From Candidatus Aminicenantota bacterium (GTDB taxonomy: Bacteria; Acidobacteriota; Aminicenantia; Aminicenantales; Aminicenantaceae): a stretch of DNA of 64,000 nt. The DNA lies in NCBI GenBank assembly GCA_030603565.1, contig JAUVXM010000001.1, positions 47,328-111,327 of the forward strand, in the 5' to 3' direction. Shown here in pieces: positions 1-4,897 of the stretch (its first letter is position 1; the number at the start of each line of letters is the position of its first letter). The notes beneath the pieces were generated by a model. The model ran no database searches, had not been told where the DNA came from, and saw only the letters and a program-made list of their open reading frames with translations. The position numbers and the translations under genes are program-made.

Positions 1-281
1 TGCCCCTCAACATCCTCCCGATCAATCAGACGGTGGTGTTCATCGCACATCAGCATGAGGTTTGAGATGTCGGTTGCTAATTTAGGAGATAAGTCATTGT
101 TCCCCCTTGGTCCATTTGGTTCGACAGCGATGATATGGGCGATATAAGCTGTGTTCATTTGTAACAAAGTTAACTCATCTTGCCACAAAGGTTTGTTACA
201 TCCCTCATACTGACAGCGCCCTCCAGTAAGCACCCAGAGACGGGTTTTTATTTTTTCAGGTATGGTAGGTCGCCTACTCAT
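1..281 (-). CDS. HNH endonuclease, N-terminal part, truncated by window edge (probable HNH-SAVED CBASS-type effector)
   Basis: Manual minus-strand translation: MSRRPTIPEKIKTRLWVLTGGRCQYEGCNKPLWQDELTLLQMNTAYIAHIIAVEPNGPRGNNDLSPKLATDISNLMLMCDEHHRLIDREDVEG. Has the HNH pattern (CxxxxC, AHI, CDEHHRLID). Absent from the ORF track because no stop lies in the window. ATG (281-279) overlaps the rhuM stop as ATGA. Confidence 0.8.
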   Translation of the reverse strand, partial: MSRRPTIPEKIKTRLWVLTGGRCQYEGCNKPLWQDELTLLQMNTAYIAHIIAVEPNGPRGNNDLSPKLATDISNLMLMCDEHHRLIDREDVEG

Positions 282-1390
282 TTCTTTTGCCTTTTGCTTT
301 TGTCAAGAATAAGACTTGCTGTTTTTTCAAGCTGTTTTGGGGTTTCCCCATTCCCAATGCCTTTCCTGCGATTTTCAGCCTCGATTTGTTTAATCATCCT
401 GTCAAAGTCGTTCTCAAAGAGTCGATCCTGCATAAAACGGAATTTTTCAAACTCACTTTCGGCAAAGTCTCCGGCGATTTCCGCTGTCACTTTGCCACTG
501 TCCTGCAAAATTTCCCGCTCGTCAAACTCCAGAAACAGGTCAAGCCGCTTTGCCCAATCTTCCATGGTCATGGGAATCTTTCGCCTTGCCCGGTCCTCGG
601 CAAGCTCCAGGTAGGCGTTGACAATCCGGCCCAGCGATTCAAGCTCTTCTTTTTTCAGATAATTCTTTGCCACGGCAACATCCGACTTCAGAATTTTCCC
701 GTTCGGACTGTTCTCCCAACTTGTGAGTCCTATATTTGGCTTTTCACTGTCCGCCCGCTTCATAATGAGTTCGGCGGCCGTATGCCCGTGAATAGCGTAA
801 TGCAGTTTGTTTTGAACCTTAGCAAAAAACTCCCTGGTTGTGGGTGCGTCCTTGTTGTAATCCACGCTGGTGGTATAAATATCAGTGATTTTCTGATAGA
901 AACGCCGCTCACTCAGCCGGATTTCACGGATTTCCTCGAGCAGGCGTTCAAAATAGTCTTCCCCGAGAAATGCCCCGTTTTCCAAACGCTTTCTGTCCAG
1001 CACATAGCCTTTGATGGCAAACTCCCGCAACACACGGGTTGCCCATTGACGGAACTGGGTGGCGCGTTTGGAGTTGACCCGATACCCTACGGAGATTATG
1101 GCGTCCAGATTATAGAAGTTGGTCATGTATTGCTTGCCGTCCGAGGCAGTTATTCGGAATTTCCTAATAACTGACTCTTGATCAAGCTCACCTCCTGCAA
1201 AAATGTTTTTCAGGTGCTCGTTGATCGTTGGCACTGTGACATCAAACAATGTCGCCATCAGCTTCTGCGTCAGCCAGATGGTTTCATCCTCGTAGCGGAC
1301 TTCGATACTTGCTTCCCCTGCTTGAGCGGTAAAAATCAGAAACTCCGCCGTGCTATTTCGGATGAGCTTTTTATGTTGTTCGCGGCTCAT
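278..1390 (-). CDS. RhuM family protein
   Basis: 370 aa ORF; N-terminus 'VRYEDETIWLTQKLMATLFDVTVPTINEHLKNIF' and 'NLDAIISVGYRVNSKRATQFRQWATRVLREFAIKGYVLD' typical of RhuM; ATGA overlap with hsdM. Confidence 0.92.
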   Translation of the reverse strand: MSREQHKKLIRNSTAEFLIFTAQAGEASIEVRYEDETIWLTQKLMATLFDVTVPTINEHLKNIFAGGELDQESVIRKFRITASDGKQYMTNFYNLDAIISVGYRVNSKRATQFRQWATRVLREFAIKGYVLDRKRLENGAFLGEDYFERLLEEIREIRLSERRFYQKITDIYTTSVDYNKDAPTTREFFAKVQNKLHYAIHGHTAAELIMKRADSEKPNIGLTSWENSPNGKILKSDVAVAKNYLKKEELESLGRIVNAYLELAEDRARRKIPMTMEDWAKRLDLFLEFDEREILQDSGKVTAEIAGDFAESEFEKFRFMQDRLFENDFDRMIKQIEAENRRKGIGNGETPKQLEKTASLILDKSKRQKK

Positions 1391-2907
1391 AACCCCAGAT
1401 CCTCCAGATACTTGTTCAGCTCCTTCTTCGTCTCAACTAGTTCCGTCTCTATTTTCTGAATCTCTTCTTGAACGGCAGGAATATCAACATCCTTTTCTTC
1501 TTCAAAAGTATCGACATATCGGGGGATATTCAGGTTGAATTCGGCCTCCTGAATCTCTTCTAATGTGGCTAAATGTGAATATTTTTCGATTTTCTTGAAT
1601 TCTCGGAACGTCAAAGCGATCTTTTCGATATCCTCATCTCGCAGGCGGTTTTGTTTCCTGCCATCCTCGAACTCCCGGCTTGCGTCAATGAAGAGAACCT
1701 GTTTGTCCCGATCACTCTTTGCTTCCTTCCAAGATTTCCGGCCCTTGTTGAAAACGAGAATTGCCGCCGGTATACCGGTGCCGTAGAAGAGTTGAGCTGG
1801 AAGCCCGATAACCGCCTCAAGAGTATTCTTCTCGGTGAAATGCTTGCGGATAAAACCTTCAGCTCCGCTGCGAAACAGGACACCATGAGGAACAATGACT
1901 CCCACTTTGCCTTCACCTTCAAGTGCTATTTCTACCATGTGACTGATAAAAGCGTAATCGCCCCGGCTTTTGGGAGGAATCCCTCGCCAAAAACGGTTGA
2001 AACGGTCGTGACTTGCATTTTCCTGCCCCCATTTATCCAGGGAGAAGGGAGGATTGGCAACTACGATATTGAACCGCATTAGTTCGTCGTTTTCGATCAA
2101 TCTGGGATTGTTAATGGTGTCGCACCATTCTATGCGGGCGGAGTCCATGGCGTGCAAGAACATATTCATCCGGCACAGGGACCAGGTGGAGCCGTTGGAC
2201 TCCTGCCCGAAAAGGGCAAAATTAGCACTTCCGACTTCCTGGCCTACCTTGATGAGTAGCGACCCGGAGCCGCAGGCGGGATCGCATATGCGGTCTCCGT
2301 TTTTTGGAGCGAGCAGTTTAGCAAGCAGAGTAGAAACTTCCGGTGGGGTGTAGAATTCACCGGCCTTTTTGCCGGCACCGGCTGCAAAACGGGCGATTAA
2401 ATATTCATAAACATCTCCGATCACATCACGATTTCCAATGCGTGATGGGCGGAGATCAAGCCGCTTGTCAGCAAAATCCTCGAGAAGATTTTTTAGGCGC
2501 CGGTTGCGTTCTTTGGTCTGCCCCAGTGCAGGTTCGCTGTTGAAATCAATATTACGAAAAACATTTTCGAGTTTTGACTTGTTGGCATCTTCGATTTTTT
2601 CAAGTGCGATATTAATGATCTCGCCGATATTGGGCTCATCCCGCTTGCTGTAGAGGGAATCAAAGTTTGATTTCGGAGGCATCACAAAACGTTCTCGGGC
2701 CAGTGCTCTTTCCACTCTGGGTGTATCACCATTATACTTATTCTCATATTCCTCTTTTTTATCTTTCCAAAGATCGCTCATATACTTGATGAAGAGCATA
2801 GTTAGGATATAATTTTTGTATTCCGATGGATCGACAGCACCCCTAAATGAATCACATGCCCGCCAGACAACATCATTGATTTCTTTTTTTGATACATGAG
2901 GATTCAT
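1387..2907 (-). CDS. hsdM: Type I restriction-modification DNA methyltransferase subunit M
   Basis: 506 aa; 'GEFYTPPEVSTLLAKLLAP', 'DPACGSGSLL', 'NPPF' motif IV. Confidence 0.96.
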   Translation of the reverse strand: MNPHVSKKEINDVVWRACDSFRGAVDPSEYKNYILTMLFIKYMSDLWKDKKEEYENKYNGDTPRVERALARERFVMPPKSNFDSLYSKRDEPNIGEIINIALEKIEDANKSKLENVFRNIDFNSEPALGQTKERNRRLKNLLEDFADKRLDLRPSRIGNRDVIGDVYEYLIARFAAGAGKKAGEFYTPPEVSTLLAKLLAPKNGDRICDPACGSGSLLIKVGQEVGSANFALFGQESNGSTWSLCRMNMFLHAMDSARIEWCDTINNPRLIENDELMRFNIVVANPPFSLDKWGQENASHDRFNRFWRGIPPKSRGDYAFISHMVEIALEGEGKVGVIVPHGVLFRSGAEGFIRKHFTEKNTLEAVIGLPAQLFYGTGIPAAILVFNKGRKSWKEAKSDRDKQVLFIDASREFEDGRKQNRLRDEDIEKIALTFREFKKIEKYSHLATLEEIQEAEFNLNIPRYVDTFEEEKDVDIPAVQEEIQKIETELVETKKELNKYLEDLGL

Positions 2908-2910
2908 TGT

Positions 2911-3501
2911 TTATTTCTCCTGTTCTTGGATTGCTTTTAAACAAAGCGCTTTGACAAGACGCGATCGTAAGGAAGATAACCTGTCCAGAAGGAATTGCTC
3001 ATGCTCGGCGAGAACTATAATTTTTACCACTTTTTTTTGAACAGAAAGCGGGGGGATCTGAACTTCCAGGCGGGAAAGTGTTCTTTTAGTAATAAATGAC
3101 ATCAGGGATCCCTGTGACTGTGATTGAAAGTAAGACTGAGTTTTCGGTTGATTAATCCACCACGAAAGATATTCAGGGAGCAGATTTTTGTTTTTAATGC
3201 TAATAATATAAAAAGAACCTGCGGCTACAGTATCTTTTAGATCTTTTTTGAGATAATAAGAAAAATGTTCCATGCCGCGTGCCTGAAAAAGAATATCTCC
3301 TTTATGGATAGAATAAGTTTCAGGTTTCCGGTCAGGGGAAAAGGAAATTAGGCCTTTAGGTCGCAAATGATGGAAAGAATCAAAATTTTTACTTTGAATA
3401 AGGCGGTGTGTACCTTGTGTGTTCTCCTGGATTCCAGTTTTAGCCTGGTATCCCACTCGGATGTCGGCAATTGTCTTTAAAAGATTTTTTGTTATTTTCA
3501 T
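2911..3501 (-). CDS. hsdS: Type I restriction-modification specificity subunit, half-size (single TRD)
   Basis: 196 aa; one TRD followed by a coiled-coil segment 'IPPLSVQKKVVKIIVLAEHEQFLLDRLSSLRSRLVKALCLKAI'; stop lies 3 nt before the hsdM start. Confidence 0.82.
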   Translation of the reverse strand: MKITKNLLKTIADIRVGYQAKTGIQENTQGTHRLIQSKNFDSFHHLRPKGLISFSPDRKPETYSIHKGDILFQARGMEHFSYYLKKDLKDTVAAGSFYIISIKNKNLLPEYLSWWINQPKTQSYFQSQSQGSLMSFITKRTLSRLEVQIPPLSVQKKVVKIIVLAEHEQFLLDRLSSLRSRLVKALCLKAIQEQEK

Positions 3502-3837
3502 TAGTTTATAATAGCGGTAGCAATGCTACTTATTATATAATATACGCATTATGTTGCGAATTGTCAAGGAAAAATTAAAGTATATCTTCTACTGATTCCA
3601 TCTTCTAAGCTTATATATCCACAGTAATACACAAAAAGAACATTTACTTCAATAAAAAATCTCTCCCGGCGGTGATTTCCATGCCAAAAATCCTGCTCGA
3701 TTTGATCTTCCCCAGACCAGTGTAATAAAATCAAACTAACACTCATAATGATGTTCCTTGGCAGACAACGGAAGAAGGAGAAGTAATAGATTATGAATCA
3801 GTATTCTATCGTACCCCGCCCTATTCAGTGAGAGATT

Positions 3838-4103: not shown

Positions 4104-4304
4104 CTACCCGCCACAGATCATATGAATTACATCAATTTTGGAATTATTGGGGACAATCACTTTTGAAAAATCTGATCTGAGGATAACTTTTTTATTAATT
4201 TTTACAACAACAAGGGGAAATGTGTATTTCATTCTTTTAAGCAGCTGTTTGATAGTTTCGTTTTCTTCCCAATCAATTTTTCTGGTGTTTACCTCAATAC
4301 TCAC
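4104..4304 (-). CDS. thiS: ThiS-like sulfur carrier protein
   Basis: 66 aa beta-grasp-like sequence ending in C-terminal GG; 4-nt overlap with thiF. Confidence 0.8.
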   Translation of the reverse strand: MSIEVNTRKIDWEENETIKQLLKRMKYTFPLVVVKINKKVILRSDFSKVIVPNNSKIDVIHMICGG

Positions 4305-4897
4305 TTGTCTTCACCCAATATAATCTCAAGCGCAAGATTTGCTTCCCAATTTGCCATAAGACAAACACGAGGTGCCATAAGTATGTCATTTTCACTCGAA
4401 AGGGCCTGCTCGTCATAGCACATATTTAGCTTGCCTAACCGTTTTGTTACTATCCGCTCAGAGTGTCCATAACCTGCGACCCCGGAGGCAGCTACAATAG
4501 GTTTTTCAGGGAGATTTAATAAGATTTCTTCAATAAATTCTGTTTTTGTTACAGCCTTATCCAGTGCTTCTATTACAACATCAACATCTTTGAACGGTTT
4601 AAACATTGACCCTCTTTCCAATCTAAGATCATAAGTTTCGACTTTAACATTGGGGTCGATTCTTCTTATGTTTTCCTTTATAACAGCTACTTTTTGTTTG
4701 CCGATTTGATCTAAAAAATAATATTGTCTGTCGAGATTGCTTTTCTCGATTTTGTCAAAATCAACCAGTACTAACCGCCCGATCCCGGCCCGAACAAGAG
4801 CAATAGCTGCATTAGAGCCAAGGCCTCCGATTCCAGCTATTCCAACACTTGCATTTTTAAGTTTTGTCTTTACCTTATCAAATTTATCTTTATTCAT
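4301..4897 (-). CDS. thiF: ThiF-family sulfur carrier adenylyltransferase (E1-like)
   Basis: 198 aa; 'VGIAGIGGLGSNAAIALVRAGIGRLVLVDFDKIEKSNLDRQYYF'. Confidence 0.88.
   Translation of the reverse strand: MNKDKFDKVKTKLKNASVGIAGIGGLGSNAAIALVRAGIGRLVLVDFDKIEKSNLDRQYYFLDQIGKQKVAVIKENIRRIDPNVKVETYDLRLERGSMFKPFKDVDVVIEALDKAVTKTEFIEEILLNLPEKPIVAASGVAGYGHSERIVTKRLGKLNMCYDEQALSSENDILMAPRVCLMANWEANLALEIILGEDK

Follow-up and report, generated by a model that had tools for sequence, protein, structure and literature searches.

A predicted CBASS nested in a type I restriction–modification operon of a Candidatus Aminicenantota bacterium, and its recurrence in related operons

Gene content of the locus

The DNA analysed here (the window) is a stretch of 64,000 nucleotides from the Candidatus Aminicenantota assembly GCA_030603565.1, taken from the middle of the 111-kb contig JAUVXM010000001.1 (C139:47328-111327). 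A minus-strand frame at positions 281..3 (93 codons in the window) runs off its left edge; because the contig extends 47 kb further left, the frame could be read to its end. It is the start of cap5, a gene for an HNH nuclease fused to a SAVED domain, and together with the two genes that follow, for a cGAS/DncV-like nucleotidyltransferase (CD-NTase) and an E2-like protein, it makes up a predicted cyclic oligonucleotide-based antiphage signalling system (CBASS). This CBASS sits between hsdM and hsdS2 of a type I restriction–modification (R-M) operon.

Ten genes lie on one strand in the order hsdS1-hsdM-rhuM-cap5-cdnG-E2-hsdS2-TIGR04141/DUF6119-hsdR-ygjP, and all are intact. Positions are given for the window and for the extended locus L005, where window position = L005 position - 10000; slots 1 and 2 are defined with the operon backbone below.

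window 3539..3567, minus strand: candidate promoter, TTGACA-17-TATATT (11/12 match), 38 bp upstream of hsdS1
window 2911..3501; L005:12911-13501, minus strand: hsdS1, first operon gene, half-length specificity-type, 196 amino acids (aa) (PF01420, E 6.1e-9)
window 1387..2907; L005:11387-12907, minus strand: hsdM, type I N6-adenine methyltransferase, 506 aa (PF02384, E 3.4e-103; TIGR00497 above cut-off)
window 278..1390; L005:10278-11390, minus strand: rhuM, slot 1 accessory gene between hsdM and cap5, 370 aa (PF13310, E 2.6e-111)
window 1..281 (5' part); L005:9133-10281, end at C139:46460, minus strand: cap5, intact 382-aa HNH-SAVED gene, assigned from open reading frames, families and solved structures
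L005:7951-9129 (C139:45278-46456), outside the window, minus strand: cdnG, CD-NTase, 3 bp downstream of cap5
L005:7189-7947, outside the window, minus strand: E2, E2-like protein gene
L005:5870-7198, outside the window, minus strand: hsdS2, full-length specificity gene, 442 aa
L005:4218-5867, outside the window, minus strand: TIGR04141/DUF6119 gene, slot 2
L005:965-4318, outside the window, minus strand: hsdR (TIGR00348 above cut-off)
L005:200-940, outside the window, minus strand: ygjP, YgjP peptidase gene, last of the operon

The successive gaps, in operon order, are 3, -4, -4, 3, 3, -10, 2, about -101 and 24 bp. At the edge frame, the start codon of cap5 and the stop codon of rhuM overlap within ATGA (-4 bp); an overlap of the same length joins rhuM to hsdM, and hsdS1 and hsdM are 3 bp apart. 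The overlap of about 101 bp before hsdR most likely means that the true hsdR start lies later. To judge from the gene spacing, the ten genes would be co-transcribed.

The edge frame as an HNH–SAVED effector

The complete product of the edge frame was compared with protein families and solved structures. It contained a match to the SAVED family (PF18145, E 2.9e-54), its residues 3-374 matched the PADLOC model for HNH-SAVED endonuclease effectors (E 1e-165), and nearly the entire length could be aligned with a solved Cap5 (E 5e-97), Protein Data Bank entry 7rwk, which we take to be one of the Cap5 structures of PMC8568899. By these matches, the predicted assignment of the edge fragment to Cap5 is far above chance level. 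The HNH and zinc residues C23, C28, H49, N74, C79, H82 and H83 are invariant among 8 relatives, and the SAVED match of Cap5 is unique in the genome.

With merely 93 codons in the window, the frame could be read as a standalone HNH protein or as a decayed fragment at the contig edge. Extension to the left gave an intact gene that includes SAVED, with a CD-NTase as its neighbour, and leaves that reading virtually no probability; a contig-edge artefact was ruled out in the same way, the gene being intact beyond the edge. An earlier, sequence-only reading of the window had taken the frame for the N-terminus of an HNH-SAVED protein of the Cap5 kind, and SAVED indeed lies in the same polypeptide of 382 aa. 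That reading had also described an ATGA overlap with the rhuM stop, which was recovered at -4 bp, and had considered the case that SAVED and a CD-NTase follow, the latter being found directly behind cap5. Its proposal to extend the contig leftwards and search for SAVED, CD-NTase and HsdR families returned all three, with HsdR near the operon end, and neither of the outcomes it had named as refuting (an HNH protein without SAVED, or HsdR without a CD-NTase) occurred. Of the hsdS-hsdM-rhuM-HNH unit it proposed, the order and overlaps stand, whereas the upstream hsdS proved to be half-length and the full-length hsdS lies downstream of the CBASS.

Cyclase, E2 and CBASS type

CdnG matched the DncV-like PF21654/SMODS families and the PADLOC cyclase model (E 1.4e-145), and its solved homologues are 9woo and SmCdnG 8hsb. 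The residues of the catalytic motif, GS(59-60) and D77/D79 (DxD), are invariant. The protein encoded next matched the PADLOC E2 model (E 2.7e-79); it had no Pfam family match, and a single-sequence search against solved structures was marginal. An AlphaFold2 model of this protein reached a mean pLDDT (predicted local distance difference test) of 93.8, and its best solved matches by Foldseek were almost all E2 or ubiquitin E2 variant (UEV) folds (best probability 1.00, E about 1e-3). The identity of E2 was settled by profile and predicted fold. Residues H83 and C91, the latter a catalytic-type Cys, are invariant across 25 relatives, and the C-terminal CPCGSG...CHG motif resembles SEC-C zinc sites.

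No E1 (Cap2) or JAB (Cap3) gene was found in the operon, the one E1-like gene in the vicinity being a thiamine-type thiF outside it. With this gene content, cap5-cdnG-E2 is classed as a predicted type II-short CBASS. A ThiS-ThiF pair lies at window 4104-4897, on the operon's strand and 0.6 kb upstream of it. ThiF was considered as an E1 for E2 and rejected, since the pair scores above thiamine-type NCBIfam cut-offs and stands outside the operon.

The C-terminal residue of published type II cyclases with a full Cap2 is Ala or Gly (PMC11153139), whereas CdnG ends in KPWRT. In most cyclases that precede this E2, KPW or a close variant of it stands a few residues short of the C-terminus, with Pro and Trp invariant in a 15-sequence alignment, and the solved 9woo cyclase likewise ends in KPW plus three residues. 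Cyclases without this E2 (those fused to AGS_C or paired with a short E2 family) mostly end otherwise; in the rare exceptions, L099 and L117, E2 is cut off or further away. This covariation of tail and adjacent E2 suggests that E2 may act on the KPW tail of CdnG, and such an ending may go with this E2 class.

A system of similar composition is the CdnG-Cap5 type II (short) CBASS of Asticcacaulis sp. and Lactococcus lactis, whose operon encodes an HNH-SAVED effector, a CdnG-type cyclase and a third protein that falls in no Pfam family (PMC8568899). There, CdnG makes 3',2'-cyclic GMP–AMP (3',2'-cGAMP), which activates Cap5 and leads to DNA degradation (PMC8568899). By analogy with that work only, 3',2'-cGAMP is probably the product of CdnG and the ligand of Cap5 here as well. 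The text of PMC8568899 that was searched gives no R-M context for its CBASS, whereas the present one follows rhuM and directly precedes hsdS in a type I R-M operon.

Restriction–modification genes and transcription

HsdM carries intact DPACGSG and NPPF motifs, and the motifs ECK, QGSGKS and DEGH of the nuclease and superfamily 2 (SF2) motor are present in HsdR. Two PF01420 stretches in HsdS2 correspond to two target recognition domains. In terms of encoded proteins the predicted type I R-M set (HsdM, HsdR and an HsdS with two target recognition domains) is complete. RhuM, in addition to its Pfam family, matched the PADLOC candidate PDC-S05 (E 8.5e-160).

The candidate promoter is the best minus-strand sigma-70-like site, and equal-best overall, in the 14.5 kb scanned by consensus matching. 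From there to the end of hsdR, no other minus-strand sigma-70-like site with at least 10 matches was found apart from an overlapping one beside it, nor was any minus-strand terminator-like site found between hsdS1 and the hsdR start. The scan fits a single operon.

Recurrence on a defined backbone

Searches with Cap5 and, independently, with HsdM led to one R-M subfamily with the backbone S1(half)-M-[slot 1]-S2-[slot 2]-R-YgjP. Wherever a backbone locus is complete at its 5' end, a half-length hsdS1 (usually about 185-245 aa) precedes hsdM, besides the full hsdS downstream; it may act in alternative specificity, assembly or regulation. Counting the window, 17 loci have CBASS genes embedded among same-strand hsd genes of a type I R-M operon, and 13 of these 17 belong to the backbone subfamily; the Cap5 locus lists hold the best 80 of at least 497 metagenome matches.

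A Cap5 CBASS occupies slot 1 in the window, in L007/L203 (Desulfobulbaceae), and in L192, L069, L072, L080 and L130, as well as on the shorter contigs L062 and L077. In one Chitinophagaceae genome with two backbone copies (L022, L202) the CBASS straddles S2, hsdS2 standing between cyclase/E2 and Cap5, so that CBASS and R-M genes interleave. L190 and L197 carry a CBASS with a patatin effector (the PADLOC phospholipase effector), the former in slot 1 and the latter in slot 2. A further arrangement, M-S-Cap5-CdnG-R with the CBASS between S and R, was seen at L065, L109, L114 and L119, mostly in other type I families. Recurrence elsewhere led us to reject a recent chance insertion in this genome alone. 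On a separate metagenome contig (L059), whose Cap5 is 85% identical to that of the window, the order cdn-E2-cap5-cdn was observed, apparently two CBASS units in a row.

When HsdM alone was used as the query, a CBASS was present in 3 of 13 complete backbones. Backbones free of CBASS either have no cargo or carry various genes, most of them in the slots, among them Fic, RhuM, Bro-N, Abi_2, Schlafen/AlbA_2, PD-(D/E)XK and HAD.

Nesting was then compared with adjacency at those 36 Cap5-CBASS loci that are flanked on each side by 3 kb or more. Six are nested between same-strand hsd genes and three have an hsd gene of opposite strand on one side, whereas same-strand hsd on one side only was seen in 0/36. 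As nesting is more frequent than one-sided proximity, all of it on the opposite strand, mere clustering of CBASS and R-M in defence islands is not favoured.

Cassette exchange and horizontal transfer

Close relatives of the locus differ in the CBASS they carry. Between L190 and the window, HsdM is 89%, the cyclase 68% and E2 77% identical, and patatin takes the place of Cap5; in L189, with HsdM 89% identical to that of the window, rhuM-patatin starts before the contig ends. Nested loci include three kinds of cyclase, namely those with this E2 and the KPW tail, those fused to AGS_C, and those with the short E2 family. Presence of CBASS requires at least 5 changes on the HsdM tree, and the nested or not-nested state 12 changes on the cyclase tree (informative loci only).

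Compared with the Desulfobulbaceae genome G401, HsdM and HsdR of the window are 87% and 83% identical and rpoB 56%; the latter is below the 61% rpoB identity to a genome of the same phylum (G239). R-M similarity so far above that of rpoB indicates that the locus moves between distant bacteria.

These observations bear on whether the CBASS is passive cargo, its two slots being recombination hot spots of a mobile R-M locus that caught it by chance, with no functional or regulatory benefit. Many kinds of cargo share the same two slots, the whole locus is clearly transferred horizontally, and G+C is uneven across the genes. The insertions, however, repeatedly keep direction and near-overlap (in most slot-1 cases the outer junctions measure roughly -10 to +50 bp), whereas insertions at random would in many cases disrupt or invert the operon. 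Housekeeping genes are hardly ever among the cargo, and one-sided same-strand adjacency is absent from the 36 loci. On balance we regard chance carriage as unlikely.

A proposed modular platform for abortive infection

The finding of a complete CBASS inside an R-M operon, together with its recurrence in unrelated bacteria, indicates that two lines of defence have been genetically wired together. We consider it likely that the restriction operon is a modular platform carrying a swappable abortive-infection module as a second line of defence, with CBASS as one recurrent choice, and that R-M and CBASS are probably switched on as a unit.

Type I R-M systems cut unmodified DNA. To go by the families present, the Hsd complex would methylate host sites and cut unmodified incoming DNA as a non-abortive first line. 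Should phage replication be sensed nonetheless, CdnG, controlled via its E2 partner and C-terminal KPW tail, would make a cyclic dinucleotide, probably 3',2'-cGAMP, which would join SAVED domains and turn on the HNH nuclease. Active Cap5 would then destroy DNA and abort the infection as the second line. RhuM and the TIGR04141 protein would be further accessory genes of the operon, and the comparison of loci suggests that different accessory defence genes can replace one another in its slots. What keeps R-M and CBASS together would be joint expression and joint transfer rather than any biochemical link.

Several points weigh against this reading. The KPWRT ending of CdnG departs from that of type II cyclases with a full Cap2, and the best sigma-70-like site is a mere consensus match. 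TIGR04141 has a G+C of 34.7% against 43-51% in most neighbours, so that parts of the operon are probably recent arrivals. Slot 1 cargo in sister loci is quite different (RhuM, Fic, Abi_2, Bro-N), and this diversity argues against a dedicated R-M–CBASS machine. The best-match lists for Cap5 are not a random sample, and part of the counts comes from metagenome contigs of limited length. As to the low-G+C gene itself (L005:4218-5867), it is likely a recent arrival in slot 2.

A closer union of the two systems was also weighed, in which the type I complex holds CdnG/Cap5 inactive or reports phage DNA, as with PrrC, so that anti-restriction proteins or failed restriction start cyclic-nucleotide signalling and R-M and CBASS are one machine. 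Nesting that is precise, with overlapping genes, and gained several times would suit such a guard, as would the 0/36 count for same-strand one-sided adjacency; PrrC in EcoprrI is a proven precedent for an R-M-embedded effector silenced by the R-M complex (PMC3710099, PMC12707154). Yet the cyclases and effectors in the slots belong to different subfamilies (E2/KPW-tail, AGS_C-fused or short-E2; Cap5 or patatin), unrelated cargo occupies the same slot, and near kin of the same cyclase and Cap5 also stand outside R-M operons. With cyclases and effectors so varied, and with unrelated cargo beside them, co-regulation is easier to square with the data than specific protein contacts, and such a guard appears distinctly unlikely. 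We give equally little weight to the proposal that the cyclase is gated by the Hsd complex, or by the blocking of that complex by phage anti-restriction proteins, which would make a restriction-triggered second-messenger system with exchangeable effector and cyclase cassettes; were it true, R-M complex and CBASS would be one functional unit. The claim of the sequence-only reading that cyclic-oligonucleotide signalling is physically coupled to type I modification holds as genetic coupling only (gene order, overlaps and a shared promoter candidate). Its term unusual hybrid defence locus is half right, the nesting recurring in other phyla and with several CBASS types.

Relation to known embedded systems

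The EcoprrI type Ic R-M locus is comparable in that its operon encodes, among the hsd genes, the abortive-infection effector PrrC (PMC3710099, PMC12707154). That effector is one protein, an anticodon nuclease kept in physical contact with the Hsd complex, whereas the present locus encodes a whole second-messenger system that is not known to contact Hsd. DarTG2, between hsdS and hsdR of a type I system of enteropathogenic Escherichia coli (EPEC) with the repressor RptR, is likewise a complete abortive-infection module in one defence operon (PMC12255303). It differs in being a toxin–antitoxin module, in its slot, and in the dedicated small repressor gene that comes first; here the first gene is the half-length hsdS, and no RptR-like gene was seen in the window's operon. 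As with PrrC and DarTG2, the CBASS lies between hsd genes, on the same strand and with operon spacing. From comparative work on R-M operons with toxins resembling RhuM or DOC, multi-level defence had been proposed earlier (PMC3710099). An experimental parallel for an embedded second line comes from DarTG2 in its type I operon (PMC12255303).

Three elements are already known separately: this type of CBASS, type I R-M, and abortive genes embedded in R-M. No description of a CBASS inside a type I R-M operon was found in the literature searched, which did not cover a 2024 preprint on embedded defence. The same literature yielded no account of nested CBASS recurring as an interchangeable cassette on a particular R-M backbone, and relative to it that finding is new. 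The preprint in question, by Payne et al., reportedly sets out the idea that defence systems can harbour further defence genes. To this idea the window's RhuM is related by its match to a PADLOC 'PDC' candidate family.

If the favoured reading of a modular restriction platform holds, layered immunity can be built within one operon, a whole second-messenger system having been nested repeatedly and its effectors swapped. The locus also offers one natural setting for asking whether abortive systems guard restriction, that is, whether blocked restriction leads to more cyclic-nucleotide signalling. With its defined order of S-half, M, slot 1, S, slot 2, R and YgjP, the backbone has slots that can be mined for unknown defence genes. 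Slot 2 proteins without an informative Pfam match, large or small, are encoded at L203:7025-10807, L201:6851-10588, L069:11257-12540 and L080:13325-14155, and are candidates for such genes.
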